Below, piece by piece: positions 24 to 61,647 of a stretch of 64,000 nucleotides of DNA. The position numbers and the translations under genes are program-made. The stretch comes from Cocleimonas flava (GTDB lineage: Bacteria; Pseudomonadota; Gammaproteobacteria; Thiotrichales; Thiotrichaceae), in NCBI RefSeq assembly GCF_004339015.1, contig NZ_SMFQ01000003.1:744001-808000 (forward strand). The letters run 5' to 3'. The number at the start of each line of letters is the position of its first letter. Position 1 is the first letter of the stretch. Under the pieces are notes generated by a model. That model saw only the letters and a list, made by a program, of their open reading frames with translations. It was not told where the DNA came from and ran no database searches.

Positions 24-54
24 AAAAAAGTGCCCGTAAGTAGGGGGGTGGCTT
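24..54 (-). repeat. C6/G6 dispersed repeat, unit 1
   Basis: Reverse-oriented copy (A-run, TGCCCGTAAG, TAGGGGGGTG, GCTT) of the dispersed intergenic repeat whose forward core is CACCCCCCTACTT followed by a T-run. It lies about 160 bp upstream of the efflux operon; the gene to its left is outside the window. Nothing else is recognisable in the first 198 bp. Confidence 0.85.
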
Positions 55-213
55 ATCTATTTCTCCATGCTGTTAATGTTATCTTTATATATAGTTATAT
101 CCCATAATATTCCTTATATTCTCACCCTACCTTTAAAAAACACGTTATAGATCAATACCCATAGTAACGAGTCATGTGACAATGAATGACACAAACTAAT
201 GGAAGGATTTCTA

Positions 214-1398
214 ATGCGAGTTTCTTACATTGTTATTCCCTTATTGATCGGCGCAGGCATATACGGCTGGTACTGGAAGCAAACCCACCCTGATATTATT
301 CCCGTTTCAGTTGTTTCTGTTGATAAAGGTGACGTCGAAGCAACCGTGGCCAATACTCGTGCAGGTACTATAAAAGCCTGCCGCAGAGCCAAATTATCCC
401 CTTCATCTGGCGGCCAGATTAGCGAATTACCTTACGCCGAAGGTGATTTTGTTAAAAAAGACACAATGCTTTTAAAAATCTGGAGTCTGGATTTACAAGC
501 TGAAGTTGAACACATTAAAAAGAATATCATCGCCAGTGAAGATACAGCTGAAGCCACCTGTTTACAGGCAGACATGGCACAACGCACGGCAGATCGTGAG
601 TTACGCTTATTGCGCTCCAGATCAATCTCGCAGGAAGAATACGACCTAAAATACACTGAATATCTAGTCAATAAAGCTTCTTGTAAGGCAGCTAAAGCCA
701 ATATCGATTCTGTTAAAGCCAGCCTGCTTGTCGCTCAGGAACAATTAAAACGCACTGTTTTATATGCGCCCTTTGACGGCGTTATTGCAAAAATTAACGG
801 TGAGCTAAATGAATATGTAACACCCTCCCCGATTGGTATTCAAACACCGCCGGTGATTGATCTCATAGAGCCGGGTTGCTTTCTGGTCAGTGTACCTGTC
901 GATGAGGTAGATGCACCCAAAATCAAAATTGGCATGCCAGCCCGAATTTCCTTAGATGCATGGCGCGGCCAAATATTTAAGGCAAATGTTTCTCGCATTG
1001 GCTCTTATGTGACCGATACCGAGAAACAGGCACGAACGGTTGAAATCGAATTAAGCTTTCAAGATAAAACCCAGCTTGATGATTTATTAGTCGGTTATAG
1101 CGCTGATGCAGACATCATTCTACAAACCAACAAAGATGTGTTACGCATCCCTAGTGAGACATTAGTTGATGATTCCCACGTATTACTGTTTAACCCAGAG
1201 AGCAAGCTTTTAGAAAAAATTACCGTAAAAAAAGGTCTCAGTAACTGGAGCTTTACAGAAATAACAGAAGGCTTAAAAACGGGAGATCAATTAGTCACAT
1301 CTGTCGGCACAACTGGCGTTAAAGAAGGTGTTCTGGTCAAAGTTGTAAACGAAAAGACAGCGAAAAATAGCAATAAGATAGATAGTAAAAATGATTAA
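214..1398 (+). CDS. HlyD/MacA-family periplasmic adaptor of an ABC efflux pump
   Basis: Adaptor subunit expected to link an inner-membrane MacB-type permease to an outer-membrane channel. An N-terminal membrane helix (about residues 2-20) is followed by a lipoyl-like half motif, an alpha-helical hairpin (about 90-175), the second lipoyl half (YAPFDGVIAKI) and beta-barrel sequence. An in-frame ATG exists at 199, but its GGAAGGA is an ideal Shine-Dalgarno for the ATG at 214, so 214 is chosen (394 aa). The stop overlaps the ATPase start by 8 bp and four genes are co-directional, so this is one operon. The substrate cannot be told, and no TolC-like partner is present in the window. Confidence 0.9.
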   Translation: MRVSYIVIPLLIGAGIYGWYWKQTHPDIIPVSVVSVDKGDVEATVANTRAGTIKACRRAKLSPSSGGQISELPYAEGDFVKKDTMLLKIWSLDLQAEVEHIKKNIIASEDTAEATCLQADMAQRTADRELRLLRSRSISQEEYDLKYTEYLVNKASCKAAKANIDSVKASLLVAQEQLKRTVLYAPFDGVIAKINGELNEYVTPSPIGIQTPPVIDLIEPGCFLVSVPVDEVDAPKIKIGMPARISLDAWRGQIFKANVSRIGSYVTDTEKQARTVEIELSFQDKTQLDDLLVGYSADADIILQTNKDVLRIPSETLVDDSHVLLFNPESKLLEKITVKKGLSNWSFTEITEGLKTGDQLVTSVGTTGVKEGVLVKVVNEKTAKNSNKIDSKND

Positions 1399-2077
1399 AC
1401 TCCAGGATATCTGCCGTTTTTTTAAGGTCGGAGATGAAACGGTACATGCGCTAGATAAAGTCACGCTGGATATCTCGCGTGGCGATTATATAAGCATTAT
1501 GGGCGCATCCGGATCGGGCAAATCAACCCTACTTAATATGCTAGGCCTGTTAGACATGCCAAACTCTGGCAGTTATCAATTTGAAGGTAAGGAACTCACG
1601 ACCTTATCCGAAGAAAAAAGAGCGACTTTTAGACGTGAAAACGTAGGTTTTATCTTTCAATCTTTTCATCTGATTCCTCGCCTGACTGCAGCAGGTAACC
1701 TCGAACTCCCTCTAATGCTGATGGGTATGGCGCCGAAAGAACGCCACACTAAAGTAAAAGATGCATTAGCAAATATTGGACTAGCTGATCGTGCCAATCA
1801 TTTACCTAAACAGTTATCCGGCGGGCAACAACAACGCGTAGCAATTGCGCGCGCCATGATACTCAAACCCCCTTTATTATTAGCCGATGAACCAACTGGC
1901 AATCTTGATACCCACTCCGGCAATGATGTTGTCAAAATACTGGAAGAATTAAACGCCTCTGGCATTACCTTAATCGTAGTCACGCATGACTTGGAATTGG
2001 GGGAACGTGCTACCCGCAAAATCAAAATGCTGGATGGAAAGATCATAGAAGATGTGACATCTGAAAAACCAATATGA
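1391..2077 (+). CDS. ABC transporter ATP-binding protein, MacB/LolD type
   Basis: Stand-alone nucleotide-binding subunit of 228 aa. Walker A is GASGSGKS (residues 38-45), the Q-loop is FIFQSF, the signature is LSGGQQQR (about 142), Walker B is LLLADEP (about 162) and the switch His is in VVTHD (about 196). The family (MacB/LolD/FtsE) powers mechanotransmission pumps rather than classical alternating-access transport. It overlaps the adaptor gene by 8 bp and the first permease by 4 bp (ATGA), indicating translational coupling. Start and length are normal for the family. Confidence 0.95.
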
Positions 2078-3279
2078 GAATTCTGGATACATTAGGCTTT
2101 GGTAAAATCGCATTAACAGCGAACCCAACGCGAACACTGTTGATATTACTCGCAATGTCTATTGGCGTAGCGTCCGTAATCATTTTGACTTCCTTAGGTG
2201 AAGGTGCACGTAAATATGTCTCAGCCCAATTTGAAACCCTAGGCTCAGAGTTACTTTTCATTCTTCCGGGCAAAAGAGAAACAACCGGCGGTCTACCTCC
2301 CCTATTAGGAACGTCTCCCAAAGATTTAACTATTGAAGATGCGTTATCACTAAAGCGCAGCCGTGCTATTGCCTATGTCGCTCCGGTGATTTTAGGCGCT
2401 GCGCCTGTATCCTTCGCATCCAGAGAACGAGAAGTCGTTATTTTCGGTAGCAGTAGCGATCTCAAAGCTGCGCTTGATTTACCGATGGCTGCAGGACATT
2501 TCTTACCCGATGATGATCCAAGAAATGCGGCATCAATCTGTGTTATTGGAAACAAACTTAAAAAGGAGCTATTTGATAATAAAAAAGCCATAGGTGAATG
2601 GTTAAGGATTGGAGAACGACGTTTTCGGGTGATTGGCGAACTCAGTGCAAAAGGCCAATCTGTTGGCATGGATTTAAGTGATACTGCCATCATCCCTGTA
2701 GCAAGTGCTGAAATTCTTTTTAATAAAGCCTCACTCAGCCGTATGATTGTTAAAGCACGCGGCAAAGAATCACTGGATAAAGCCGAAGCAGATATTTTAA
2801 GAACGATCAAACAACGCCACGATGGTGATGAGGACATCACCATTTTACGACAGGATTCCTTATTACAAACGTTTGATGGGGTATTGCAAACACTGACCTG
2901 GGCGCTGGCAGGTATTGCAGCTATCAGCCTGATTGTTGCCGGAATACTGATTATGAATGTCATGCTGGTTTCAGTAAGCCAGAGAAAATCCGAGATTGGC
3001 TTACTGAAAGCGCTGGGAGCCCCCACGCGTCAAGTGCTTACCCTATTTCTGAGTGAGGCTTTGATGCTATCCATAGCCGGAGGAATTATTGGCGTATTTA
3101 TTGGCCTTGCCGGCGCAAAAATGATTGCCTACTTTATTCCAAACTTTCCCGTGCAAACACCATTATGGGCAATTGCTGCTTCACTCATTGTTACCATTAT
3201 TACGGGGCTGATATTTGGCAGCATACCCGCCAGCAAAGCGGCAAAACTGAACCCCGTATTAGCCCTTTCGGATAAATAG
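2074..3279 (+). CDS. MacB/FtsX-type ABC permease (first of two)
   Basis: Permease of 401 aa with the MacB core/FtsX layout: one N-terminal membrane helix (about 25-45), a large periplasmic domain (about 46-270) and three C-terminal helices, ending in the family-typical [16 protein letters not shown]. It starts in an ATGA overlap with the ATPase. It is clearly homologous to the next gene; the two probably form a heterodimer driven by the single ATPase. The conserved cytoplasmic motif [15 protein letters not shown] is present. The substrate is unknown. Confidence 0.92.
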
Positions 3280-3287
3280 TTAATAGA

Positions 3288-4487: not shown

Positions 4488-4493
4488 TAGTTT

Positions 4494-4525
4494 AAAAAAC
4501 CCCTCATAAGTAGGGGGGTGCCTTT
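4494..4525 (-). repeat. C6/G6 dispersed repeat, unit 2
   Basis: Reverse-oriented copy (A-run, CCCCTCATAAG, TAGGGGGGTG, CCTTT). It begins 7 bp after the stop of the plus-strand permease and lies 42 bp past the stop of the minus-strand GST gene, a convergent position fitting a bidirectional terminator. Confidence 0.85.
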
Positions 4526-4566
4526 ATAAACGTCTATTAACTCTAATTTAAAAAGAACCGAGTAAT

Positions 4567-5193
4567 TTACGATTTTTTCATCGCGACAAATCTGGGCATT
4601 GCTTCAATCTTAGCAAGCCATGCTTTAATATTTGCATAAGACTCTAAACTGATATCCCCTTCAGGCGCATGAGCGACATAGGTATAGCAAGCGATATCCG
4701 CAATTGTGATTTCATCTCCGATTAAAAAATCATGTTGGCTTAGGGTGTTGTTGATCATTCCCAACAACGCATGGGTCTTTTTCTCTACAGCCTCAAAATC
4801 GATTTCAACCTTATACAAATTACTAAATCTTGCGGCAGCCGGGCCAGAAGCTAACTCGCCTGCGGCGATAGATAACCAGCGTTGTGTTCTTGCAGCTTGC
4901 TCTGCGGACTCGGGCAACCATGCATGACCATCCTTGTATTTTTTAACCAGATAAACCAGTATCGCGTTCGAATCAGCTAACTTAACACCATTATCATCAA
5001 TGACTGGAACCTGACCAAATGGACTTGTTTCTAAATAATCATCTGGGCGATTACTACCATCGCGATTTAATTCGATAATCTCATAAGGTAAATCCAGCAG
5101 AGACGTCATTAACTGCACTCGATGACAATGCCCTGATGCCTCAAAACGATAGAATTTAATGGGATTATTGCTTTCTGGAAAATGGCTATTCAT
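4567..5193 (-). CDS. Glutathione S-transferase family protein
   Basis: Cytosolic GST-like protein of 208 aa. The thioredoxin-fold half (about residues 10-90) carries the cis-Pro glutathione-binding segment FGQVPVIDD and the Asp-Ser motif LADSNAILVYL. An all-helical C-terminal half follows, with the N-capping type segment EITIADIACY. The activating residue of this bacterial class cannot be assigned by eye. It is transcribed alone on the minus strand, with a 60-bp perfect palindrome 56 bp upstream of its start. No purine link is implied beyond position. Confidence 0.9.
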   Translation of the reverse strand: MNSHFPESNNPIKFYRFEASGHCHRVQLMTSLLDLPYEIIELNRDGSNRPDDYLETSPFGQVPVIDDNGVKLADSNAILVYLVKKYKDGHAWLPESAEQAARTQRWLSIAAGELASGPAAARFSNLYKVEIDFEAVEKKTHALLGMINNTLSQHDFLIGDEITIADIACYTYVAHAPEGDISLESYANIKAWLAKIEAMPRFVAMKKS

Positions 5194-5248
5194 ATTGATT
5201 ACCTGTCAATTAGATTCTTAACTATAGCTTACGGTAAATAAATTGTCA

Positions 5249-5308
5249 GACACCCCCCTACTTATAGGCACTTTTTTTAAAAAAAGTGCCTATAAGTAGG
5301 GGGGTGTC
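5249..5308. repeat. Perfect 60-bp palindrome made of two head-to-head C6/G6 repeats (unit 3)
   Basis: A forward copy (ACACCCCCCTACTTATAGGC, then C-ACT7) is joined at its T-run to a reverse copy (A7, GTGCC...). The two halves are exact reverse complements from 5249 to 5308. It lies 36 bp beyond the stop of the adenine deaminase gene and upstream of gst, so it is positioned to act as a terminator of the deaminase transcript. Perfect symmetry implies recent origin or strong constraint. Confidence 0.95.
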
Positions 5309-5343
5309 ATTTTAATTAGTCTTTAAGCTGCCTTAGCTTCGTA

Positions 5344-11375: not shown

Positions 11376-11408
11376 TAAAAAATGCCCTCAAAGTGGGGAG
11401 GTGCCTTT
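11376..11408 (-). repeat. C6/G6 dispersed repeat, unit 4 (diverged)
   Basis: Reverse-oriented, with the G-run interrupted (GTGGGGAGGTG). It lies between the importer operon and guaD, about 80 bp from unit 5. The two units point away from each other and share the 287-bp gap, in which nothing else was recognised. Confidence 0.75.
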
Positions 11409-11487
11409 AATCGTTTTAAATATATGTTTCTTTATTACACTTTTAATACACTTTAAATAGACGCGTATTAAACCCTTATCGATTGTA

Positions 11488-11516
11488 CCCACCCCCCTAC
11501 TTTAGAGGCTTTTTTT
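11488..11516 (+). repeat. C6/G6 dispersed repeat, unit 5
   Basis: Forward copy (CCCACCCCCCTACTTTAGAGGC plus T7), 51 bp beyond the stop of the minus-strand guanine deaminase gene. Confidence 0.85.
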
Positions 11517-13728: not shown

Positions 13729-16049
13729 GACTTTGCTCCGCTATTTGTATCAGTATCATCAACAATATCAGTTATGGCGCTAATGGCATTCATAATATTT
13801 TCAGGAGTTGCAGGCGCATCCAAGGGTGGATTAATTTTGTAATCAGCGACACTGGCTATCGCATCGCGAATCGCAAAAAACACCGAGAATCCCAACAGCA
13901 ATGGTGGTTCACCGACAGCTTTTGAACGCAATATGGTGTCCTCATGATTCGGGTTATGAAAAAGTTTTACTCTAAGGTCATCTGGACAATCGTTAACAGC
14001 AGGAATTTTATAGGTGGAAGGTGCATGCGTCATTAGCTTGCCCTTCGGGTTCCACCACAAATCTTCTGTCGTAAGCCAACCCATTCCCTGAATAAAAGCG
14101 CCTTCTACCTGACCGATATCTATTGCTGTATTAATTGGATTACCGGCATCGTGTAATAAATCTGCTCGGAGTAACTTCATCTCGCCGGTCAAGGTATCAA
14201 CAATCACTTCTGAAACGGCTGCACCGTAGGCAAAATAGAAAAAAGGTCGACCTTGTAACTTATCCTTGTCCCAATTCAGTTTGGGTGTTTTATAAAAACC
14301 GTCTGACCAGAGTTGTATTCGGTTTTCATAAGCTTCTACAACAAGTTCTGTGAAGGGTATCGATTGTTTATCAAGACTGACCGTATCATTTTCAAATAAC
14401 ACATCTTGAATGTCACCCCCCCACTTATGGGCGATATATTCTGCAAAACGTTGTTTAATCTGTGCAGCAGCATTCTCGGCGGCTTTACCATTTAAATCAG
14501 TTCCGGAAGATGCCGCAGTTGCGGATGTATTAACGACTTTACTGGTATCTGTGGCTGTCGCTCGTACCCGACTTAGATCAACACCCAGCACTAATGCAAC
14601 AACCTGCGCAACTTTGGTATTCAGCCCTTGCCCCATTTCAGTGCCGCCATGATTCACCAGAATAGAGCCATCGGTGTAGATATGGACCAATGCACCAGCC
14701 TGATTGAAATGCACCACATTGAATGAAATCCCGAATTTTACGGGGGTCAGTGCTAAACCTTTTTTTAGAATTGGGCTCGTTTCGTTGTAAGCCTTAATCT
14801 CAGCGCGACGCGCTACGTAATCGCTGGTTTCTTCTAACTCGGCAACCAGCTCATGAATAACATTGTCTTCGACCGTTTGACCATAAGGCGTAACATTGCG
14901 CTCAGCGTTGCCGTAAAAATTAGCTTTACGGATTTCCAGAGCGTCTTTACCTAAGTCACGTGCAATATTATCAATAATATTTTCAATCACGATGGCTCCC
15001 TGTGGACCACCAAAGCCTCGAAATGCGGTATTTGACTGGGTATTGGTTTTGCCACACATCGCGTGTATTTCAACATCACTCAGATAGTAAGCATTATCAA
15101 AATGGCATACCGCACGGGTTGCTACCGGTGGTGATAGGTCAGTTGAAAACCCCGAACGCAAAACCATTTCGACTTTGGCTGCAAGAATTCGTCCATCTTC
15201 ATCAAAGCCAACATCGTATTCATAGTAGAAACAATGACGTTTTCCCGTAGCCATAAAGTCATCATCACGATCGAGACGAATTTTTACTGAGCATTTCAGG
15301 TAATCAGCACATATCGCGGCGACACAGGCAAACAAGCCCGATTGAGACTCTTTACCACCAAAGCCACCGCCCATACGGCGTGTTTCGATAAGCACCTGAT
15401 TAAAATCACGCTTAGTCGAATGCGCAACCAAATGCTGCATTTCAGTAGGATGCTGAGTGGAACAATACACCAGCATGCCATTATCTTCTTTAGGGATGGC
15501 GTAGGAGATCTGGCCTTCCAGATAAAACTGTTCCTGCCCGCCTACATAGAATGTTCCTTTGCTTCGATGTGGGGAATCTTTGAGTTTCTTTTCGGGTTCG
15601 CCACGTACTAACTGCATTGGCGGAACCACAAACGAACCCTGGAGCTTAGCTTCCTGTGGCGTCATGATTGCAGGTAAATCTTCGTATTCGACTTTTGCTA
15701 ATACGCTTGCGCGACGAGCCGCCATATAGTTTTTGGCAACAACCACGAACATTGGCTGACCTACAAACTGTACTAAACCATCGGCAAGAATAGGATCATC
15801 CTGAACTATCGGACCACATTCGTTTTCGCCCGAAATATCTTTGGCAGTTAATACTGCGACCACATCCTCGGCGGCTTCAACAGCGGATAAGTCCATGGAT
15901 TTGATTAATGCATGTGGGCGCTCGCTTAAACCCAGAGCCGCATACAAGGTTCCGTTGACCTCAGCAATATCATCCACATACACCGCTTCACCAGACACAT
16001 GTAAATGCGCGGATTCGTGAGGATGAGATTTTTTGGGTGACTGCCTCAT
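13725..16049 (-). CDS. xdhB: Xanthine dehydrogenase molybdopterin-binding subunit
   Basis: Large catalytic subunit of 774 aa oxidising hypoxanthine and xanthine to urate. Diagnostic segments are GEAVYVDDI (N-terminus), RRMGGGFGGKESQ (molybdopterin dithiolene contact), AFRGFGGPQG, GGTEMGQGLNTK, RPFFYFAYGAA and the C-terminal GEPPLLLG, whose Glu is the conserved catalytic base. Four-base overlaps link it to xdhA and xdhC. Oddity: the stretch encoding AHKWGGDIQ (about 14410-14435) is nearly identical at DNA level to the dispersed C6/G6 repeat. Confidence 0.96.
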   Translation of the reverse strand: MRQSPKKSHPHESAHLHVSGEAVYVDDIAEVNGTLYAALGLSERPHALIKSMDLSAVEAAEDVVAVLTAKDISGENECGPIVQDDPILADGLVQFVGQPMFVVVAKNYMAARRASVLAKVEYEDLPAIMTPQEAKLQGSFVVPPMQLVRGEPEKKLKDSPHRSKGTFYVGGQEQFYLEGQISYAIPKEDNGMLVYCSTQHPTEMQHLVAHSTKRDFNQVLIETRRMGGGFGGKESQSGLFACVAAICADYLKCSVKIRLDRDDDFMATGKRHCFYYEYDVGFDEDGRILAAKVEMVLRSGFSTDLSPPVATRAVCHFDNAYYLSDVEIHAMCGKTNTQSNTAFRGFGGPQGAIVIENIIDNIARDLGKDALEIRKANFYGNAERNVTPYGQTVEDNVIHELVAELEETSDYVARRAEIKAYNETSPILKKGLALTPVKFGISFNVVHFNQAGALVHIYTDGSILVNHGGTEMGQGLNTKVAQVVALVLGVDLSRVRATATDTSKVVNTSATAASSGTDLNGKAAENAAAQIKQRFAEYIAHKWGGDIQDVLFENDTVSLDKQSIPFTELVVEAYENRIQLWSDGFYKTPKLNWDKDKLQGRPFFYFAYGAAVSEVIVDTLTGEMKLLRADLLHDAGNPINTAIDIGQVEGAFIQGMGWLTTEDLWWNPKGKLMTHAPSTYKIPAVNDCPDDLRVKLFHNPNHEDTILRSKAVGEPPLLLGFSVFFAIRDAIASVADYKINPPLDAPATPENIMNAISAITDIVDDTDTNSGAKS
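14413..14432 (+). repeat. C6/G6 repeat look-alike inside xdhB
   Basis: TCACCCCCCCACTTATGGGC on the plus strand differs from the unit-3 core at only two positions over 19 bases. It lacks the following T-run and is fully coding (minus strand, IAHKWGGD). It could be chance, or conversion of coding DNA by the repeat. Confidence 0.4.
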
Positions 16050-18964: not shown

Positions 18965-19020
18965 TAAAGCAAATCATAATTAGATCAAAAAGAATGAAAA
19001 ACAAAGAATGCAGATTATAA

Positions 19021-19049
19021 GTCACCCCCCACCTTTGGGGCACTTTTTT
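19021..19049 (+). repeat. C6/G6 dispersed repeat, unit 6
   Basis: Forward copy of the CCACCTTTGGGG subtype (GTCACCCCCCACCTTTGGGG then CACT6). CCCC and GGGG can form a short stem before the T-run. It abuts the stop of the minus-strand allA gene (19051). Confidence 0.9.
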
Positions 19050-22747: not shown

Positions 22748-23089
22748 TTAACTTCCTCTATATGTTGAATAGCCAAAAGGAGAGAGTAATAACGGAATGT
22801 GGTAATGCTCTCCGTCACCCGTTATATCGAAAACAATTTCAGCATAGGGATAAAAAGCGTCTATCTTCTGTTTTTGAAAATAGGCTTCTGTCACAAACAA
22901 GACTTTGTATCTGCCAGCATCCAGCTTGATTTCATCCGCCAATAAATTAGACACACGTCCATCACTATTCGTTATTCCTGCGCCCAGTAACTGCCATTCA
23001 TCATTGACTAATTGAGATAAGGTTAAATCAATTCCCTCTGCGGGCTTCCCAACCGCCGTATCTAAAACATGGGTAGTTATTTGGCTCAT
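22748..23089 (-). CDS. uraH: 5-hydroxyisourate hydrolase (transthyretin-like)
   Basis: Protein of 113 aa hydrolysing 5-hydroxyisourate to OHCU. The family signatures are ITTHVLDTAVGKPAEG at the N-terminus, DGRVSNLL, and the C-terminal tetrapeptide YRGS preceded by HIPLLLSPFGYSTY. The catalytic His and Arg positions are therefore present. It overlaps uraD by 4 bp and lies 3 bp before puuD, so the three consecutive steps are co-translated. Confidence 0.96.
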   Translation of the reverse strand: MSQITTHVLDTAVGKPAEGIDLTLSQLVNDEWQLLGAGITNSDGRVSNLLADEIKLDAGRYKVLFVTEAYFQKQKIDAFYPYAEIVFDITGDGEHYHIPLLLSPFGYSTYRGS

Positions 23090-23631
23090 GCTTTTTCCTC
23101 TAGTAATTTAAGTAATCTAATCTGGGTTATTTTGCGTTGTTCTTCAGCTGCATTTTCAAGTTCTTGTTTTCTATTATTGGGTAAGCGTTTTAGTAAAAGT
23201 TCCAGCATTTCTTCCGCACTTTTACCGGTGGCACACACTATAAAAATGAAGCCGAATTTTTCTTTGTAATCCTGGTTTCCCTGAGTCAATAACTCCAATG
23301 TATTCTCATTGGCTGTATTAACGCCAGACTGCTCATGCCCTGCCAGCTTTTCTGTATTGCGATATTTTTCTCTAAGCGTAGACACATCACCGATTTCAGG
23401 ATGCCCTTCAAAAGCTTCCAGATAATCTTCTTCAGTAGAGAGTTCCCAATGTTGATCGGCTGTTGCTAACAAGGATTGAGAATCTGAAAAAGGACGACTC
23501 TGTTCCATTCGCATGCACCACTTCTGACTGGTATTGCATTGCATAAATAGATCAAGAGCCTGTTCTTTAGAAAGCTGATTAATGAAACTACACCCCCCTA
23601 CTTTCAGGCCTTTTTTTGTTGATGAACTCAT
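23086..23631 (-). CDS. uraD: OHCU decarboxylase
   Basis: 2-oxo-4-hydroxy-4-carboxy-5-ureidoimidazoline decarboxylase, 181 aa, producing S-allantoin. The catalytic region FEGHPEIGD, the ANENTLELLTQGNQDYKEKFGF motif region and the C-terminal RLLKLLEEKA are typical. The start lies in an ATGA overlap with the upstream deaminase and no other start codon occurs before residue 28. Oddly, residues about 5-14 (TKKGLKVGGC) are encoded by a complete C6/G6 repeat unit, so this N-terminal tail is repeat-derived and absent from normal UraD. Confidence 0.93.
   Translation of the reverse strand: MSSSTKKGLKVGGCSFINQLSKEQALDLFMQCNTSQKWCMRMEQSRPFSDSQSLLATADQHWELSTEEDYLEAFEGHPEIGDVSTLREKYRNTEKLAGHEQSGVNTANENTLELLTQGNQDYKEKFGFIFIVCATGKSAEEMLELLLKRLPNNRKQELENAAEEQRKITQIRLLKLLEEKA
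23590..23618 (+). repeat. C6/G6 dispersed repeat, unit 7, within the uraD coding region
   Basis: Forward copy (ACACCCCCCTACTTTCAGGCC plus T7). It lies wholly inside uraD, just after its start codon and after the upstream deaminase stop. It keeps frame and contributes no stop on the minus strand. Confidence 0.9.
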
Positions 23632-27076: not shown

Positions 27077-27107
27077 TGAAATGACTCCACGAGGAGTGGA
27101 TCTTTCA
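27077..27107 (+). promoter_or_regulatory. Leader hairpin before the GlyGly-CTERM gene
   Basis: Nested arms TGAAA...TTTCA and TCCAC-GAGGA-GTGGA form a hairpin 28 nt before the start codon, with a GAGGA in its loop. It could modulate translation or mRNA stability; no known riboswitch class was recognised. Confidence 0.35.
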
Positions 27108-27134
27108 GTCTATTTTCAATCAAGGAGAGTTGAT

Positions 27135-29204
27135 ATGTCAGTACAAACATTTAGAAAAACCCCGATCGCTTTAGCAATAACGACAGCCGTTACAATGCTT
27201 ATTGCTACGAATCTACAAGCAGGGCAAATTGTTACCGACGCACCAGAAGGTGAAGCGTTAAAAACCGCTGTTAATACACCAAACCAGCAATTTGGCTTTG
27301 GTGGATGGGATTTGAGCAATATTAGTGTAAATATAGTAAGCGTAGAGGATTTCGCTACTGTAACAGGGTCTTATAATCCTGCCGATGGAAGTTATACCAG
27401 TATGGTATTAGGTGATTCTTTTGAGTCTGTTATCACCACTGGTGGTGAGGTTAGAGGACTGCTACACGGTAAAGATTGGCCTACTGGTGAACCATCAGGA
27501 ATCAAAATCATAAATGGTGATTTGGAGACTAAACAAGGTAGACCAGAAAACTGCATAATGACAACATCTTACCTTGATAATGGTGGACCAACTCTTTGTT
27601 CTAGCCCTTTTCAAAGCCACAAACGTTTTAAAATTAATTTACAGCCAACTACAGTAGCTGGTGTTGAAGCGGGATTAGGATCACCCGTAGAAATATCATT
27701 TAATCTAAAAGAAGGTGATACCAGTACACAACGCTACCAAGTCTTACAAAAAATTAATAACTACACAGGTAAACGTCTTAATGGATATAGCATTGAAGTG
27801 TTCGATGCCGAAGGTCTTCCAAATCCAGAATTGACAGTATCCATAGGTTTAGGTGAAAACCCAAGCAATGGTGATGAACCAGCCACAGATATCTGGGATA
27901 TCGAATCAAGAGCTAACTTCTCTCATGGGTTATGGGGACCAATAGATCAACATTTTGACTCTAATGGCTTTTTTGATAGCACTCGAGTTTATTACACGCC
28001 AGCGGTGGGTTCTAACAGCATCTCTTATGCGGGTCCAATGCTAGGCGGTAACTATCAGGAACTCTTTGGTAACTGGTTGCCTTCTATTTGGGAGCCAACA
28101 GGGGTATTTCATGATGATGACTTTAACCCACTTACTGATGCAACACTCAAAGCTTTTTGGGGCGATCCTCTAAAAACTGGAACAAATGCATGGCATAAAG
28201 GCAATGAAGATAACTGGGAAATTGCGACCGAGGAAGATCTACTTACTTGGTCAGGCGATTGGTATGCACAAGGTCCGGTTGAAGATGTTTTGAATCTGGG
28301 CGTAAACTACATCGTTAACGTCGGTGATAACACCGCCATTGGTAATAAATTCACCATTCGTATTACCCCAAGTGTTGATTCAGATCAGGTCGAACCCGCT
28401 TATGTGGCGGATGTTGCACCAGAGCCAGGATATGACGAAAGTGAAGGTATCGTGGTTGTTGATATAACACCGATCCCTGAAGACGAGCCAGATTCTGAAG
28501 AAGTGACTGATGATGAGACTGTTGTCGAGGATGATACAGCTGCTGAAGATGATGCTGTTGTCGAAGACGATACTATTGTTGAAGATGACGTTGTAGCCGA
28601 AGACGATACCGTTGTTGAAGATGACGTTGTAGCCGAAGACGATACCGTTGTTGAAGATGACGTTGTAGCCGAAGACGATACAGTTGTTGAAGATGATACT
28701 GTTGTCGAGGAACCTGCTGTTGCAGCTAGACCAGAAGAAGAGCTTGTTCTTGAAGGTTCAGCACTTATCACAGTAGGTGTTGCCGACAATGACCTCAATA
28801 CTGACCCACTTGCAAGAGAAACGGTTGAAATTGCAGTAACCAGTGATCATGGTGAGACAGAAATGTTGACCCTAACTGAAACCGATATCAATACATCTAG
28901 ATTTATCGGTTACTTAAATGCTCATGCTTCAAACGAAGCAACTGTAGATAATGATGGTAAGTTGAATCTTAATAAGCACACTAACTTGAAAGCGACTTAT
29001 GTCGATAATAAATACGGTGAGCAAACAACGCCTGAAACCGTTGAAACGGAGCTAGCGATTGAAGTTGCTGAGTTACCTGCAGAAACAGAAACTAGCAGCA
29101 GTGGTGGCGGTAGCTTCAACACTTTCTTAATAATGCTATTAGGTACTCTTGGAATTCGCGGATTATTCGCACGCAGAAAACTTAGAGCTAACAATACCAA
29201 GTAA
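27135..29204 (+). CDS. Large exported GlyGly-CTERM protein with acidic repeats
   Basis: Surface-type protein of 689 aa. A signal peptide ends near LQAGQIV. A long extracellular region (about 30-430) resembles NCBI choice-of-anchor proteins, possibly type F (from memory). An acidic Val/Glu/Asp repeat region (about 455-535, unit EDDTVVEDDVVA) follows, then a second domain starting GSALITVGVADNDLNTDP. The tail SSSGGGS, a hydrophobic helix and ARRKLR is a GlyGly-CTERM, processed by rhombosortase and linked to type II secretion. AAGGAGA precedes the ATG at 27135, favouring it over the frame opening at 27081. The function is unknown. Confidence 0.82.
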   Translation: MSVQTFRKTPIALAITTAVTMLIATNLQAGQIVTDAPEGEALKTAVNTPNQQFGFGGWDLSNISVNIVSVEDFATVTGSYNPADGSYTSMVLGDSFESVITTGGEVRGLLHGKDWPTGEPSGIKIINGDLETKQGRPENCIMTTSYLDNGGPTLCSSPFQSHKRFKINLQPTTVAGVEAGLGSPVEISFNLKEGDTSTQRYQVLQKINNYTGKRLNGYSIEVFDAEGLPNPELTVSIGLGENPSNGDEPATDIWDIESRANFSHGLWGPIDQHFDSNGFFDSTRVYYTPAVGSNSISYAGPMLGGNYQELFGNWLPSIWEPTGVFHDDDFNPLTDATLKAFWGDPLKTGTNAWHKGNEDNWEIATEEDLLTWSGDWYAQGPVEDVLNLGVNYIVNVGDNTAIGNKFTIRITPSVDSDQVEPAYVADVAPEPGYDESEGIVVVDITPIPEDEPDSEEVTDDETVVEDDTAAEDDAVVEDDTIVEDDVVAEDDTVVEDDVVAEDDTVVEDDVVAEDDTVVEDDTVVEEPAVAARPEEELVLEGSALITVGVADNDLNTDPLARETVEIAVTSDHGETEMLTLTETDINTSRFIGYLNAHASNEATVDNDGKLNLNKHTNLKATYVDNKYGEQTTPETVETELAIEVAELPAETETSSSGGGSFNTFLIMLLGTLGIRGLFARRKLRANNTK
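28541..28700 (+). repeat. 36-bp coding tandem repeat
   Basis: A unit beginning GTTGTTGAAGATGACG, with period 36 bp, is repeated almost perfectly about three times and is flanked by degenerate copies. It encodes the acidic spacer of the GlyGly-CTERM protein. Exact repeats make copy-number change likely. Confidence 0.85.
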
Positions 29205-29286: not shown

Positions 29287-29330
29287 TGATTTTTGTTCTG
29301 TCTTTTCGTTTAGCCGCTTTAGATTAAATG

Positions 29331-29359
29331 CCACCCCCCACCTTTGGGGCACTTTTTTT
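29331..29359 (+). repeat. C6/G6 dispersed repeat, unit 8
   Basis: Forward copy of the CCACCTTTGGGG subtype, nearly identical to unit 6. It lies 39 bp past the stop of the minus-strand phosphoribosyltransferase gene, in a convergent gap. Confidence 0.9.
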
Positions 29360-30598: not shown

Positions 30599-30613
30599 GA
30601 GATAGCATTCTAG

Positions 30614-30643
30614 GTCACCCCCCTACTTTTAGCGTGTTTTTTT
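30614..30643 (+). repeat. C6/G6 dispersed repeat, unit 9
   Basis: Forward copy (GTCACCCCCCTACTTTTAGC, then GTGT7), 15 bp after the stop of phosphoribosyltransferase B and in a convergent gap. The 3' part differs (GCGTG), so CAC and GTG could pair here. Confidence 0.85.
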
Positions 30644-36530: not shown

Positions 36531-36563
36531 AAAAAAAGGCTTATAAGTAGGGGGGGGCCATTT
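36531..36563 (-). repeat. C6/G6 dispersed repeat, unit 10
   Basis: Reverse copy with an extended G8 run (A7-GGCTTATAAGTA-G8-CCATTT). It lies 51 bp after the VOC gene and 107 bp from the convergent SHMT-like gene. A small hairpin CCATTTC/GAAATGG overlaps its 3' side. Confidence 0.85.
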
Positions 36564-39156: not shown

Positions 39157-39163
39157 AATTGTT

Positions 39164-39193
39164 ACCCACCCCCCTACTTTGAAGCCTTTTTTT
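39164..39193 (+). repeat. C6/G6 dispersed repeat, unit 11
   Basis: Forward copy (CCCACCCCCCTACTTTGAAGCC plus T7) squeezed between the LysR stop (8 bp) and the next start codon (11 bp) on the same strand. It would separate the two transcripts or form part of the next leader. Confidence 0.9.
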
Positions 39194-40653: not shown

Positions 40654-40658
40654 AAAGC

Positions 40659-40687
40659 CACCCCCCTACTTTGAGGCGTTTTTTTGC
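40659..40687 (+). repeat. C6/G6 dispersed repeat, unit 12
   Basis: Forward copy (CCACCCCCCTACTTTGAGGCG plus T7) preceded by AAAAG. It lies 26 bp past the stop of the minus-strand parB gene, in a convergent gap. Confidence 0.88.
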
Positions 40688-43446: not shown

Positions 43447-43482
43447 AAAAAACCGCGTATAAGTGGGGGGGGGGTGGCTTTT
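43447..43482 (-). repeat. C6/G6 dispersed repeat, unit 13, with G10 run
   Basis: Reverse copy with the longest G-run seen (G10 at 43465-43474), lying between the convergent marC and ankyrin genes, 39 bp past the ankyrin gene stop. Confidence 0.85.
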
Positions 43483-45809: not shown

Positions 45810-46319
45810 ATGTTCAGTTACAGTTTATTATCTGCAGCAGCAGTGCCTACCTTAAGCGGTATCATGTTATTTATACTTAGCTTATCGCTATTTTTTGTAG
45901 CTTTTAAGGTATCAAAACAAAAAAGTGCGAATACCGGAAAATTTTTTATCACACTCATCGGAGTTGGCGCACTAGTGTCAGGTATGGGTGGTGTTAAATT
46001 AGTTACTGATGCGGAAGCTATTGTATTTATTGATGAACTTCCTTTAGTTGGATCAAAAGGCCAAGTTCAACTACAAAATCTTGATGGACTAAATACGTTC
46101 CAAAACCTAGATAATTCACAAAGAACGTTAGTCGCAGGAGCACTTACTAATCCTGTAGGATCAACGTGCACAGCCATAGCGCGCACTAGGGTTCAAAAAA
46201 TAACAGCAGCAGCTCCACCGGAAGCAGTCATTAATAGCGATCCTGCCTGTACTGAAGGCACGCATATTACTTTTAAAGCTGTGTGTTATTTTGATTGCGT
46301 ACTTGATAATCCATTATAA
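45810..46319 (+). CDS. Small VPTLS-motif membrane protein A
   Basis: Protein of 169 aa, function unknown. The N-terminus FSYSLLSAAAVPTLSG is followed by a membrane helix (about 17-35), a basic patch KVSKQKSANTGK, a second hydrophobic segment (FITLIGVGALVSGMGGVKLV) and a C-terminal domain with Cys pairs. The VPTLS-helix-basic order resembles the IPTL-type signal recognised by exosortase H, here near the N-terminus as in the midcut-by-XrtH idea (from memory). AGGGAGA precedes the ATG. It has a tandem paralogue 35 bp downstream. Confidence 0.6.
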   Translation: MFSYSLLSAAAVPTLSGIMLFILSLSLFFVAFKVSKQKSANTGKFFITLIGVGALVSGMGGVKLVTDAEAIVFIDELPLVGSKGQVQLQNLDGLNTFQNLDNSQRTLVAGALTNPVGSTCTAIARTRVQKITAAAPPEAVINSDPACTEGTHITFKAVCYFDCVLDNPL

Positions 46320-46354
46320 ATATAAACATGATCTTTTAAAATAGGGAGAAAAAG

Positions 46355-46870
46355 ATGTTCAATTACAGTTTATTAAATGCAGCAGCAGTACCAACCTTAA
46401 GCGGTATGATGTTATTTATACTTAGCTTATTGTTATTTTTTGTAGCTTTTAAAGTATCAAAACAAAAAAGCGCGAATACCGGAAAATTCTTTATAACACT
46501 CATCGGAGTTGGCGCACTTGTGTCAGGCATGGGCGGTGTTAAATTAATATCAGATGTATCAGCAGTCGGCTATGCTTCTCTTCCTATAGTTGGATCAAAA
46601 GGTTCAGTTACTCTTAACCCCAATGGAACAAGTATATTTCAAAATCAAGACGGGGCACAAAGAACATTAGTCGCAGGCAAAATTGATAAGAGCGTATTTC
46701 CTGAAGGTACATTTTGCAAGTCCATATTACAAGGTGTATCGCCTATTACGAATGATTCGTTTAATTATAACCCGTGCAATGAAGGTGACCCAATACCTTA
46801 TGAGGCAATTTGTAGATTTGAATGCGCATTCTCTGACCCCTCTGACGTCGCTGACATCTCTGACGACTAA
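46355..46870 (+). CDS. Small VPTLS-motif membrane protein B
   Basis: Paralogue of the preceding gene, 171 aa. Residues 1-70 are almost identical to protein A, including VPTLSG, KVSKQKSANTGK and FITLIGVGALVSGMGGVKL. The C-terminal domain has drifted, but keeps SIFQNQDGAQRTLVAGK and several Cys. An 18-bp leader with AGGGAGA is also duplicated. It looks like a recent tandem duplication with a conserved anchor and a diversifying exported domain. Confidence 0.6.
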   Translation: MFNYSLLNAAAVPTLSGMMLFILSLLLFFVAFKVSKQKSANTGKFFITLIGVGALVSGMGGVKLISDVSAVGYASLPIVGSKGSVTLNPNGTSIFQNQDGAQRTLVAGKIDKSVFPEGTFCKSILQGVSPITNDSFNYNPCNEGDPIPYEAICRFECAFSDPSDVADISDD

Positions 46871-48639: not shown

Positions 48640-48676
48640 AAAAAAAGTGCTTATAAGTAGGGGGGTGGCTTTTTTG
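48640..48676 (-). repeat. C6/G6 dispersed repeat, unit 14
   Basis: Reverse copy (A7-GTGCTTATAAG-TAGGGGGGTGGC-T6), 10 bp after the oxidoreductase stop. The A-run and T-run can pair, giving a terminator-like fold in both directions. Confidence 0.9.
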
Positions 48677-49635: not shown

Positions 49636-49654
49636 ACATCAGCATTTATCTAAA

Positions 49655-49682
49655 TGCCCCCCCCTACTTTAAGCGACTTTTC
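49655..49682 (+). repeat. C6/G6 dispersed repeat, unit 15
   Basis: Forward copy with a C8 run (GCCCCCCCCTACTTTAAGC), 20 bp after the hydrolase stop; the T-run is short (GACTTTTC). Confidence 0.8.
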
Positions 49683-49803
49683 TTCTAGTTATTTAAAAAC
49701 GTGAATGGAATTTATGCAAAGCAAAGGTACTTTTATAAACTGACTCTTAGGTTGAAACCATTTTCAGGGTAATTAGTGAAACGCTTTGTGATTGATATCT
49801 AAT

Positions 49804-51041: not shown

Positions 51042-51923
51042 ATGCTCAATCAACTCAGACAAATCGCCGTGTTTGCCAAAACAGTCGAACACGGCTCATT
51101 CCGTAAAGCGGCGCATGCTTTGAATCTCTCTCCATCTGTGGTCAGTCATCACATTGCTAAATTGGAAGAAGAACTAGGAGTAGCCTTGCTATACCGGTCT
51201 ACCCGTAAACTCTCACTCACCTCCGATGGCGAAGCGCTACTGATTTCAGCGCACGCCATGCTAGAAGCTGCAGAAAGTTTTTTAAATGTTGCCACTAAAC
51301 AGTCGACACAACTTATAGGAAATTTAAGCGTCACACTTCCGGCGGTTTTACAACAATCGGCTTTGGTTAATCACATCGGTTCGTTTGCTAAGTCACATCC
51401 CAATGTCATTCTAGATCTCGATTTTTCTGATTTAACCACCAACCTGATCAATGATGGGGTAGATGTCGCAATCAGAATGGGCTGGTTACAAGACAGTGGA
51501 CTCAAAGCGCGAAAACTCTATGACGTAGATCGATACGTCGTCGCATCAGCCGACTATCTCAAAACCAAGCCCAATGAAATAACCGTTGAAGAAGTCGAAA
51601 CCTGGGACTGGATGGAGCTTTCCTCGGTTGGCCTTGCGAATCTTTATTCTTTTCCAAATAACCCCAAAAGAGTATTCAGACCCCAATCCAGAATTCGGGT
51701 TAACAGTGCCTACGCCATACATAAACTCGTCTCAAATGATAACGGCATAGCTGCATTGCCAAAGTTTCTGATAAAAGAAGAACTTGAAAGTGGTAAATTA
51801 GTACATGTATTACCAGAAATAGAAATTAAATCTGTCGGTGTTTATGCGGTGTGGCCGCCGAATGCGCCCAAGGGAGGTTTGACGAGTCGTTTTGTAGAAC
51901 ACTTAAAACAGAATATACAATAG
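51042..51923 (+). CDS. LysR-family transcription regulator
   Basis: Regulator of 293 aa. The N-terminal HTH reads MLNQLRQIAVFAKTVEHGSFRKAAHALNLSPSVVSHHIAKLE and is followed by the effector domain (LSVTLPAVLQQSALVNHI onward). It is divergent from the SnoaL-like pair, the usual target arrangement. The inducer is unknown. Start and length are standard. Confidence 0.92.
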   Translation: MLNQLRQIAVFAKTVEHGSFRKAAHALNLSPSVVSHHIAKLEEELGVALLYRSTRKLSLTSDGEALLISAHAMLEAAESFLNVATKQSTQLIGNLSVTLPAVLQQSALVNHIGSFAKSHPNVILDLDFSDLTTNLINDGVDVAIRMGWLQDSGLKARKLYDVDRYVVASADYLKTKPNEITVEEVETWDWMELSSVGLANLYSFPNNPKRVFRPQSRIRVNSAYAIHKLVSNDNGIAALPKFLIKEELESGKLVHVLPEIEIKSVGVYAVWPPNAPKGGLTSRFVEHLKQNIQ

Positions 51924-51957
51924 TTACCCCCCTACTTTGAATGATATTAGTTTTTTG
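51924..51957 (+). repeat. C6/G6 dispersed repeat, unit 16 (diverged)
   Basis: GTTACCCCCCTACTTTGAATG followed after a gap by T6, starting directly at the LysR stop codon. The 3' half has drifted. Confidence 0.7.
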
Positions 51958-56362: not shown

Positions 56363-56395
56363 TGAAAAGCCGCATAAAAGTACAGGGGTGTGTTT
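56363..56395 (-). repeat. Diverged C6/G6-like repeat, unit 18
   Basis: GAAAAGCCGCATAAAAGTACAGGGGTGTGTTT keeps the unit's layout but has a G4 run, 64 bp before truC. Confidence 0.5.
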
Positions 56396-57202: not shown

Positions 57203-57208
57203 AAAATT

Positions 57209-57237
57209 GTCACCCCCCTACTTTGGGGCACTTTTTT
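57209..57237 (+). repeat. C6/G6 dispersed repeat, unit 19
   Basis: Forward copy of the TACTTTGGGG subtype (GTCACCCCCCTACTTTGGGG, CACT6), 6 bp after the truC stop. It starts the first copy of the duplicated accessory unit. Confidence 0.92.
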
Positions 57238-57417
57238 CAAATCTAGCGATGTTGTTTAAACCCCTTTCAAATAAGCCGAGCGACACGGCTAATTGACGAT
57301 TAAGGTTTTAGCTGTCTGAGTGAGGAACGAGCGAGTTCTAAAACCGCGTCAATTTGCTGTGTTGTGAGGGAACCGCATGCGGCTTGTTTGTGGGCGGCAT
57401 TTTGTTTGGTTCGTTGG
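57238..57417. repeat. Duplicated palindromic unit R1, copy 1
   Basis: About 180 bp, with a long imperfect palindrome from AAGCCG (57273) to CGGCTT (57385). Stem elements are AATTGACG/CGTCAATT, GGTTTTAG/CTAAAACC and ACAC/GTGT, with a variable apex. It is about 85 % identical to 58626-58808. No ORF. Confidence 0.85.
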
Positions 57418-57681
57418 GTATCACAATTAACTAGTATTTATAGTTACAGCGGCTCAGGAATGTTTTATCCACTAGGCGCGACTTGCAGTGAATGGTTATT
57501 CCCTTCACAAAAGTTGTAACAACGTGGATGAGGCATTCCTGATTCGCCCGAAGGGAGCAACCCAATGCCCACAATACAGCGTTATGTTTATTGGAAAGGG
57601 ATTTCCATTACCATCTAAACATGCCTTGCCTTGTGAGCATTGGGTTGCTCTGTAGTTATAAATACTAGATAACTGTGATAC
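57418..57681. mobile_element. 264-bp MITE-like insertion
   Basis: Terminal inverted repeats of 32 bp (57418-57449 and 57650-57681) match at 28 positions and begin GTATCACA. They are flanked by TGG on both sides, a possible 3-bp target duplication. The second copy of the surrounding unit lacks it, confirming insertion. Inside are further perfect inverted repeats: TCAGGAATG/CATTCCTGA, GAGCAACCCAATGC/GCATTGGGTTGCTC and TGGAAA/TTTCCA. No transposase; it must be mobilised in trans. Confidence 0.85.
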
Positions 57682-57799
57682 TGGGCTGAGCAAAATAAAT
57701 GAACTCGTAGCCGATAACTAAATATTCGAGGAGAAGAAACAAATTACCAAGCTACGAAAAAATTACTCGGTGATAGACAATAGATTGAAATCAAAAATA
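57682..57799. repeat. Duplicated unit R2, copy 1
   Basis: About 118 bp, beginning TGGGCTGAGC and including AACTCGTAGCC and TATTCGAGGAG. It is about 90 % identical to 58809-58926. It normally follows R1 directly; here the MITE separates them. No ORF was supported. Confidence 0.85.
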
Positions 57800-57828
57800 G
57801 TCACCCCCCTACTTTGAGGCTCTTTTTT
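57800..57828 (+). repeat. C6/G6 dispersed repeat, unit 20
   Basis: Forward copy (GTCACCCCCCTACTTTGAGGC, TCT6) closing the first duplicated unit. Confidence 0.92.
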
Positions 57829-57909
57829 AACCCTTCATATCTACAAAAAAATTAAAATTAATTGTACTCTACACAGATAAAACAAATATAAACAACGAGG
57901 ACCATTCTC

Positions 57910-58539
57910 ATAGATAACTTACTAAGCCGATCAGCTGAATTTGAGAAAGAGATGATTCGCATCTTTATGCAAGATGCTTATGATAATTCAGACAGAATTC
58001 GCATAAGTAAAATTATGTGTAGCGTTGCTTTCGAGCATGCTGAAAGTCTCAAAATATTATTAGCATCACATAATTTCACATCAGCAGTGGGAATACTTCG
58101 TATTCAATTCGAATCCTATGTTCGAGGAGTATGGGTGCTTTATGCAGCATCAGATACTGAGCTAAGTAAACTAACCGCCGAGCTAAATAATGAGAACGCT
58201 AAACGCGCAGAAAGATTGCCAATGCTAAGCGCAATGATTAACAAGTTAGAATCTAAAGCACCTGAGAATGCGATTTCTCCAATACTTGAGTTTAAAAAGT
58301 ATTCATGGGGGCCATTGAACTCCTATTTGCATGGAGGTCTTCATGCTATTGATCGACATAGTAAAGGTTACCCTGTCGGTATACTTGAGCAAGCACTGAA
58401 AGCGTCAAATGGTGTTAATGGAATGGTAGGAATGTTTGCTGCTGTTCTTACTGGAAGACAAGATTTAGTTAAAGAAGTATCAGAAATATACAAATCGTAT
58501 TCAGACTGTTTTCAGATGAAAGCAGATATGAATTCATAA
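57910..58539 (+). CDS. Hypothetical protein, DUF6988-like
   Basis: Unrecognised with certainty; a helical, probably cytoplasmic protein that resembles DUF6988/abortive-type hypothetical proteins (VAFEHAESLKILLASHNFTSAVGILRIQFESYVRGVWVLYAA; LNSYLHGGLHAI). An ATG at 57952 gives 195 aa. The frame continues upstream as convincing protein sequence (DNLLSRSAEFEKE) to an ATA at 57910 with GAGGA 8 nt before it. That suggests a mutated ATG or a rare start (209 aa). It lies between the two duplicated repeat units, like a cassette. Confidence 0.6.
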   Translation: MDNLLSRSAEFEKEMIRIFMQDAYDNSDRIRISKIMCSVAFEHAESLKILLASHNFTSAVGILRIQFESYVRGVWVLYAASDTELSKLTAELNNENAKRAERLPMLSAMINKLESKAPENAISPILEFKKYSWGPLNSYLHGGLHAIDRHSKGYPVGILEQALKASNGVNGMVGMFAAVLTGRQDLVKEVSEIYKSYSDCFQMKADMNS

Positions 58540-58596
58540 TAAAGCATCGATACAGATAAGCTATTAAACCTAAATCCAAACAATAATCTTAATATA

Positions 58597-58625
58597 GTCA
58601 CCCCCCTACTTACAGGCACTTTTTT
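58597..58625 (+). repeat. C6/G6 dispersed repeat, unit 21
   Basis: Forward copy (GTCACCCCCCTACTTACAGGC, ACT6) opening the second duplicated unit, 57 bp after the hypothetical gene. Confidence 0.92.
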
Positions 58626-58808
58626 AAAATCTAGCGATGTTGTTTAACCCCCTTTCAAACAAGCCGAGCGACACGGCTAATTGGCGATTATGGTTTTAGC
58701 TGTTTGAGCGACTATAGGAGCGAGTTCTAAAACCGCGTCAATTCGCTGTGTCGTGAGGGAACCGCTTGCGGCTTTTTTGTGGGCAGCCTTTTGTTTGGTT
58801 CGTTTATT
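58626..58808. repeat. Duplicated palindromic unit R1, copy 2
   Basis: Second copy of the 180-bp palindromic unit, with the palindrome from AAGCCG (58661) to CGGCTT (58774). The apex sequence differs from copy 1 while the stem is largely kept. Its first 25 bp recur in degenerate form after unit 23 (61648-61675). Confidence 0.85.
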
Positions 58809-58926
58809 TTGGCTGAGCAAAATAAATGAACTCGTAGCCGATAACTAAATATTCGAGGAGAAGAAACAAATCACCAAGCTACGAAAAAATTACTCGGTGA
58901 TAGATAACAGATTTAAATCAGGTAAA
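58809..58926. repeat. Duplicated unit R2, copy 2
   Basis: Second copy of the 118-bp unit, uninterrupted here and following R1 directly. It is followed by a truncated C6/G6 repeat. Confidence 0.85.
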
Positions 58927-58943
58927 GTCACCCCCTACTTATG
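58927..58943 (+). repeat. C6/G6 dispersed repeat, unit 22 (truncated)
   Basis: GTCACCCCCTACTTATG with five C and no T-run; it ends the second duplicated unit. Confidence 0.7.
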
Positions 58944-59100
58944 TAATAAATGAACATATAGAACCAATGATTAGGTAACAAGAATCTGGCATAATAACTA
59001 AAACTTATTCGGTTTATTTGAAAAATACAAAAACCGAAAAAAAGTAGGGAAGAGTCCCTATTTTCCTGTATTTAAAACAGATAGAAAGTTAAAAACACCT

Positions 59101-59205
59101 ATTTAACAGTAACTTAAGGATTCGTTTCAAATTGATAAAATAACTAGAAGGATTCCATATATTACTATTAAGAGGGATTTAATCCTTCTTTAAAGACCGT
59201 TAGAT
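59101..59205 (+). other. Possible attC-like site upstream of the OLD gene
   Basis: ATTTAAC (59101-59107, RYYYAAC) and GTTAGAT (59199-59205, GTTRRRY) bracket complementary stretches AACTTAAGGATT and AATCCTTCTTTAAAG. The layout is that of an integron attC site, but the pairing is imperfect. The rest of 58944-59236 is AT-rich spacer. Confidence 0.3.
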
Positions 59206-59236
59206 TCCTCAGAGTAATTGAAGTCAGGAGTAAGTT

Positions 59237-61009: not shown

Positions 61010-61011
61010 GA

Positions 61012-61072
61012 ATCTAACAAATATGTCAATTAGGATATTCACAAGCTCACGCCTATTACGCGGGCGTTATAT
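61012..61072 (+). other. Possible attC-like site before the HExxH gene
   Basis: ATCTAAC (61012-61018) and GTTATAT (61066-61072) nearly complement each other, and the right end CGCGGGCGTTATATT closely resembles the 3' end of Vibrio-type attC sites. The inner left half does not pair well, so at best a decayed or chimeric site. Confidence 0.4.
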
Positions 61073-61085
61073 TAAAGAAGACTAA

Positions 61086-61559
61086 ATGATCACATTTATT
61101 GAAAACTGGATTGATGAAACACTTAATAATTATTCCAGCCAAAAACAATCTTGCAGCCAATTTTCTGAAGAATTTAAAGGTTTTTATCCTTTGGAGTTTT
61201 TACAAAAGTGTAATTTTGTCGTAGTTAATAAAATTCCAAAACCAGATCATCCCAGTTTAATAGATGCCGGTCTTGGAAGTTTCATTGATGAACCTTCTGA
61301 TGGAATTACATATAAAAACACATACTTTATTAAGTCTGGTTATGAACAAACACCATCATTACATTTTCATGAGTTAGTCCATGTCTTACAATGGAACATT
61401 CTAGGAGTAAGTGGCTTTATTAACCGTTATATTTATGAACTTAAAAAGTACGGTTATGATGATGCACCGTTAGAAGTAATGGCTTATTATCTTGAAGATC
61501 TTTATTCAAATAATGAAAAACCAATAGATGTATCTAATTATGTTAATCAAAAAATATAA
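61086..61559 (+). CDS. HExxH protein, putative zinc-dependent peptidase
   Basis: Protein of 157 aa of unrecognised family. The motif HFHELVHVLQW contains HExxH (95-99), and a downstream APLEVMAYYLEDLY (Glu about 130) could supply the third gluzincin-type ligand. No signal peptide is visible, so an intracellular protease-like or toxin-like role is possible. The gene is AT-richer than the core genes, lies 76 bp behind the OLD gene and is bracketed by attC-like half sites, suggesting an acquired cassette. Confidence 0.65.
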   Translation: MITFIENWIDETLNNYSSQKQSCSQFSEEFKGFYPLEFLQKCNFVVVNKIPKPDHPSLIDAGLGSFIDEPSDGITYKNTYFIKSGYEQTPSLHFHELVHVLQWNILGVSGFINRYIYELKKYGYDDAPLEVMAYYLEDLYSNNEKPIDVSNYVNQKI

Positions 61560-61582
61560 CACGTTGCAGCATCGGAAAAAAT
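61554..61582 (+). other. Possible 5' half of an attC site after the HExxH gene
   Basis: ATATAACACGTTGCAGCATC overlaps the stop codon. ATATAAC is the exact complement of the GTTATAT before the gene. The matching 3' half is missing; 61583-61618 shows nothing else. Confidence 0.3.
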
Positions 61583-61618
61583 TATTCAATGAAAAACAAA
61601 CGATTTCAATCTAGTAAC

Positions 61619-61647
61619 ATCACCCCCCTACTTTGGGACACTTTTTT
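61619..61647 (+). repeat. C6/G6 dispersed repeat, unit 23
   Basis: Forward copy (CATCACCCCCCTACTTTGGG, ACACT6) in the convergent gap between the HExxH gene and pxpC. It is followed by a degenerate start of R1 (AATCTAGCAACATC). Confidence 0.92.

Follow-up and report, generated by a model that had tools for sequence, protein, structure and literature searches.

A dispersed 32-bp repeat unit of Cocleimonas flava that resembles the uptake signal sequences

The window analysed here, a stretch of 64,000 nucleotides of the Cocleimonas flava genome (contig NZ_SMFQ01000003.1, positions 744,001 to 808,000), carries many dispersed copies of a repeat unit built around a C-run core, CACCCCCCTACTT. Copy number, an excess of perfect copies, a core followed by phased T segments, versions that differ among subclades, an origin by point mutation and the occurrence of inverted pairs together form the signature of an uptake sequence. 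We consider therefore, with a probability of roughly 60%, that the unit is a new system similar to the uptake signal sequences (USS) in appearance and in mode of evolution, without claiming membership.

The preliminary description of this window reported at least 20 dispersed copies of the repeat, and this observation is confirmed. With two mismatches allowed, the core matches the window 23 times, whereas shuffled sequences give an expectation of 0.55, and a 32-position weight matrix (PWM) retrieved 23 units extending exactly from 24 to 61,647 and none in the reversed window. In the whole genome there are 721 exact copies of the core and 999 with at most one mismatch, far above the expectation given by a backward-read control pattern (0 to 2), and the exact copies outnumber those with a single mismatch (721 vs 278). 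The alignment of 198 units, taken from 924 kb, gave the 32-bp consensus AAAGN-CACCCCCCTACTT-WNRGGCNY-TTTTTT, in which the AAAG upstream of the core is part of the unit and the information falls sharply to background on both sides. Mutual information among the aligned units revealed no covarying helix, the top signals being adjacent bases, so that the primary sequence is indeed kept more than the pairing, as had been suggested. Three of four single units that were folded gave weak structures (-1 to -4 kcal/mol) and the other one -10.9 kcal/mol. No known RNA family of Rfam was found in the window. The units of the window are the following (positions, strand, description, PWM score):

24-55, minus strand, repeat unit with exact core, 48.0
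4494-4525, minus strand, repeat unit in a convergent gap, 44.3
5246-5277, plus strand, repeat unit, left half of an inverted pair that folds at -52.7 kcal/mol, 43.8
5280-5311, minus strand, repeat unit, right half of the same pair (-52.7 kcal/mol), 47.7
11377-11408, minus strand, diverged repeat unit with 2 mismatches, 37.3
11485-11516, plus strand, repeat unit, 37.5
14409-14440, plus strand, repeat unit with 1 mismatch within the coding sequence of xdhB (gene by TIGR02965) and antisense to it, 34.9
19018-19049, plus strand, diverged repeat unit with 2 mismatches, 34.6
23586-23617, plus strand, repeat unit, antisense at an operon junction and overlapping the start of the open reading frame (ORF) 23086-23631, 41.6
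29327-29358, plus strand, diverged repeat unit with 2 mismatches, 34.7
30611-30642, plus strand, repeat unit in a convergent gap, 39.6
36531-36562, minus strand, repeat unit with 1 mismatch, 41.0
39162-39193, plus strand, repeat unit, 42.7
40654-40685, plus strand, repeat unit in a convergent gap, 49.8
43447-43478, minus strand, diverged repeat unit with 2 mismatches, 23.9
48641-48672, minus strand, repeat unit, 48.0
49652-49683, plus strand, repeat unit with 1 mismatch, 34.2
51920-51951, plus strand, repeat unit with decayed T-tract, 19.1
56364-56395, minus strand, weak diverged unit with 2 mismatches, 20.7
57206-57237, plus strand, repeat unit, 46.1
57797-57828, plus strand, repeat unit, 45.7
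58594-58625, plus strand, repeat unit, 47.4
61616-61647, plus strand, repeat unit in a convergent gap, 37.7

At 57203-58935 two duplicated non-coding blocks, one of ~121+87 nt and one of 125 nt, flank a small gene (57952-58539); the copies have 90-94% identity and lie 1127-1389 bp apart, and the 125-nt block includes the repeat unit.

The closest resemblance is to the USS of the Pasteurellaceae (Hin and Apl types), discontinuous motifs of ~30 nt with a core and two AT- or T-rich segments, present in ~1000 copies (PMC1626085, PMC12616744, PMC1852404). In the USS the core is followed by AT-rich segments 2 and 3, and in the Hin type the segment centres are 12 nt apart (PMC1626085; PMC12616744). 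The Cocleimonas motif is arranged likewise, its core being accompanied by two AT-rich segments spaced by roughly one helical turn. The excess of perfect over near-perfect copies is an oddity common to the USS and to the DNA uptake sequences (DUS) (PMC1626085), and the Pasteurellaceae motifs also share with ours the inverted pairs, which there act as terminators, the subclade-specific types and the origin by point mutation (PMC1626085, PMC12616744, PMC1852404). The differences are that the Cocleimonas core is a C-run and not GCGG, that ~90% of its copies are non-coding, that its density is lower and its orientation biased by replication strand, and that it belongs to an unrelated order (Thiotrichales) and has a putative role in uptake. 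The DUS of the Neisseriaceae resemble the unit in their lineage-specific dialects, whose inner core is constant, in the inverted pairs found in terminators and in the permissive intergenic regions they occupy (PMC3630211), but they are continuous 10-13-mers without T-tracts that have ComP as receptor, while in Cocleimonas the receptor is a putative one. Within the Thiotrichales, the Beggiatoaceae have TAACTGA repeats, also a dispersed intergenic motif, although of another sequence and made of direct heptamer repeats.

The motif varies among the related genomes that we compared (G001 to G012, G000 being the genome of the window and dialect A its motif; few relatives were sampled, and the sample of G012 consisted of N letters only). 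Dialect A was found only in G000 and G007, with a subtype in G003, G008, G011 and G006, while the sister species G002, which does not have the G000 motif, carries ACCCATCCCCCCTGTTTTTT-AYATA-TTTTT in its place. This dialect B is also that of G009, and a dialect C was found in G010. All of them have in common the C-run, a T at +1 and Ts near +4 to +7, and in most of them T-tracts lie near +4 to +8 and +14 to +19; G000 retains TACTT and the distal T6. By whole-genome pattern counts the dialects are mutually exclusive, no other genome of the genus having more than two cross-matches. They mostly follow the phylogeny, tracking the ComEC tree except for G006, whose position in the tree is unsupported. 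No equivalent motif was detected in the small samples of G001, G004, G005 and the genomes of other genera. G001 and G004, otherwise free of the motif, contain one or two exact 18-nt matches to dialect C, perhaps remnants of a system that was lost. Two viral contigs of IMG/VR (L245 and L246) have one dialect A motif copy each, and several loci of the G009 sample (L143-L146 and others) contain a CRISPR-like repeat that includes TGTTCCCCACACTCGTGGGGATG, in ~40 copies.

At shorter distance the sites themselves are maintained. Between G000 and G007, with ~85% identity in aligned DNA, 28 sites were compared, of which 19 are shared and the majority of the others are near-matches in place; counted as occupied gene gaps, 23 are shared and 8 are not. 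Identity was 94% in the core columns, 65-78% in the degenerate columns and 66-78% in the flanks, in a comparison anchored on the G000 units and with part of the G007 sample picked for carrying the motif. Column-wise conservation, the lineage-specific versions and the lack of covariation support a sequence-specific DNA-binding factor, one of the two interpretations offered in the preliminary description. The longest motif-free stretch found in G000 (C1:21621-40687, L056) covers 19 kb of polysaccharide biosynthesis genes; this locus was possibly acquired, as expected if DNA gained recently lacks the tag, although it is a single example.

The other interpretation, a mobile unit of the repetitive extragenic palindromic (REP) type doubling as a terminator, fared worse, and the interpretation as a whole was thus partly supported. 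Placement was studied in a sample of ~1.04 Mb of the 4.49 Mb of the genome, with genes taken from simple ORF calls. There, ~11% of the copies with at most one mismatch lie inside ORFs; a count of copies in ORFs gave 26, against 0-1 in reversed and shuffled controls. They lie in fabD, tsaB, lpxH, rluC, tgt, clpA, xdhB and others, with ~20 antisense and 8 sense to the gene. A favoured orientation within genes has also been described for uptake sequences (PMC2346458). Alignments of the FabD, Tgt, LpxH, TsaB and ClpA proteins to solved homologues contain no insertion at the motif, indicating that the copies within conserved genes are built by substitution; the force that makes copies therefore acts by substitution, in genic and intergenic DNA alike and in both orientations. 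A REP element spread by a REP-associated tyrosine transposase (RAYT) or another transposase would account for the high copy number, the intergenic bias and the inverted pairs, similar to those of bacterial interspersed mosaic elements, that often lie near gene ends, and transposition through single-stranded DNA could give a strand bias. However, the Y1 transposase domain (Y1_Tnp, PF01797) had no match in G000, on which ground the REP/RAYT candidate was rejected, nor in four other motif-bearing genomes (G003, G006, G008 and G011), and is present in several motif-poor ones. Furthermore, the single unit is not palindromic and has no covarying or consistent helix, five coding copies arose without insertion, and sites are conserved between species while their flanks differ, all of which largely refutes this explanation and makes it scarcely credible.

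As for termination, the units are placed close to stop codons in both orientations, as previously noticed. In tandem gaps the median distance from the stop is 37 nt for sense and 54 nt for antisense units, and the median distance to the next start 122 and 83 nt, respectively. Convergent gaps, already noted as sites of the repeat, are enriched, divergent ones depleted and tandem ones also occupied. An unusual intrinsic or factor-assisted terminator, its sequence kept because a termination factor reads it, would fit this location, the T6 end and the enrichment in convergent gaps. It would also fit the close pairs: the 15 found within 130 bp of each other in the sample were all inverted, none direct, inverted pairs reach -43 to -53 kcal/mol when folded, and every pair whose G6 and C6 point inwards lies in a convergent gap. 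Against it, sense and antisense units are even in tandem gaps (44 and 45), so that units are not oriented with the upstream gene as intrinsic terminators are, most folded single units lack a GC hairpin ahead of the T-run, no covariation exists among units and some copies lie within housekeeping genes. On the orientation test and the absence of covariation we rejected termination as the primary role, and we regard this explanation as very improbable. What survives of the terminator claim concerns the pairs and not the single units, half of which are antisense and some coding: since inverted pairs form strong hairpins and tail-to-tail ones sit in convergent gaps, termination is a plausible secondary use for them, as paired USS and DUS serve as terminators (PMC1852404, PMC3630211).

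Unit orientation is unrelated to transcription in tandem gaps and tracks instead the GC skew, from which the leading strand was assigned, no mapped origin being used. In ~73% of cases (138:52, ~2.65:1) the G6 strand coincides with the presumed leading strand. The skew changes sign near 0.94 Mb of contig C1 and 0.13 Mb of C2 of G000, where the unit strand preference flips too; these are likely replication origin or terminus boundaries. Such an orientation by replication, like that of the FtsK orienting polar sequences (KOPS) or Chi, could point to an intracellular protein that binds the unit and acts across the chromosome, in nucleoid organisation, segregation or repair, and ~1000 sites in lineage-specific versions would suit a co-evolving factor. 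The G-strand of the unit, AAGTAGGG, resembles the KOPS motif, GGGNAGGG. Nevertheless, for a unit that consists of a C-run, a strand bias follows from background skew alone. Composition predicts a 1.65- to 2.1-fold bias (binomial p = 0.003 or 0.19, respectively), leaving most or all of the 2.65 expected; this counted against KOPS and Chi as candidates. GC skew accounts for at least part of this real bias, and a role in replication may exist but need not be invoked. KOPS and Chi share with the unit the ~1000 copies and the G-rich strand preferentially leading, but they are ~8 bp long, whereas the unit has ~32 bp, is largely non-coding and carries a T-tract 14 nt away; besides, AAGTAGGG is rare outside units in the sample. 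More perfect than near-perfect copies would be unusual for intracellular binding sites (an argument of PMC1626085). Even spacing, considered as a sign of chromosome packing, was not seen. Altogether we find an intracellular role unlikely.

Under the uptake-signal proposal, the unit would be a non-palindromic recognition site of ~32 bp, with a C-run core and phased T-tracts, that a sequence-specific DNA receptor would bind, most likely on the cell surface in natural competence. Preference would be given to incoming DNA bearing the site, which would then be recombined, and point mutation together with biased uptake (molecular drive) would build up copies, mainly in places where harm is least, that is, in intergenic DNA away from promoters. 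Inverted pairs may then have been co-opted as hairpin terminators, and a shift of receptor specificity would shift the consensus genome-wide and give rise to lineage-specific dialects. We infer here the receptor, the biased uptake, the drive and the termination by pairs. The genome of the window has competence genes (ComEC, ComEA, DprA and GspH/FimT-type pilins), and a type IV pilus operon with minor pilins, FimT/GspH among them, is located near C1:567-574 kb. Several observations weigh against the proposal. These competence genes are found equally in the motif-free G001, G004 and G005 and do not discriminate. USS and DUS have many coding copies and a density of ~1 per kb, whereas ~90% of the units are non-coding, at ~1 per 4.5 kb; although over-represented in ORFs relative to controls, only about one copy in nine is there. 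USS and DUS show no strand bias, against the ~2.65:1 found here, the spacing of units is not more even than random, and site conservation across dialects is weak (p = 0.03-0.7 depending on the comparison).

Two further features of the window were seen apart from the units. Two adjacent paralogous short proteins (45810-46870) start with MF.YSLL.AAAVPTLSG.MLFILS and have an IPTL-like segment at the N-terminus. A large secreted-looking protein (ORF 27081-29204) contains a highly repetitive acidic stretch of EDDTVVEDD type (28400-28798).

Uptake sequences have been regarded as confined to the Neisseriaceae and Pasteurellaceae (PMC3630211). The chances are about even that Cocleimonas independently evolved DNA self-recognition as a third uptake-sequence lineage, with at least two receptor shifts in one genus that each time rewrote hundreds of genomic sites, and with tags almost entirely outside genes. 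If true, this would be a third, independent case beside the self-recognition tags of Haemophilus and Neisseria, and the several dialects in one genus together with motif-free close relatives would allow tests of how specificity is gained, shifted and lost. It could also be tested whether the layout of core and T-tracts converges with that of USS because of the way the outer membrane machinery bends DNA, and which of the minor pilins acts as receptor. Genetic exchange would then be biased towards self in these sulfur-oxidising marine bacteria.

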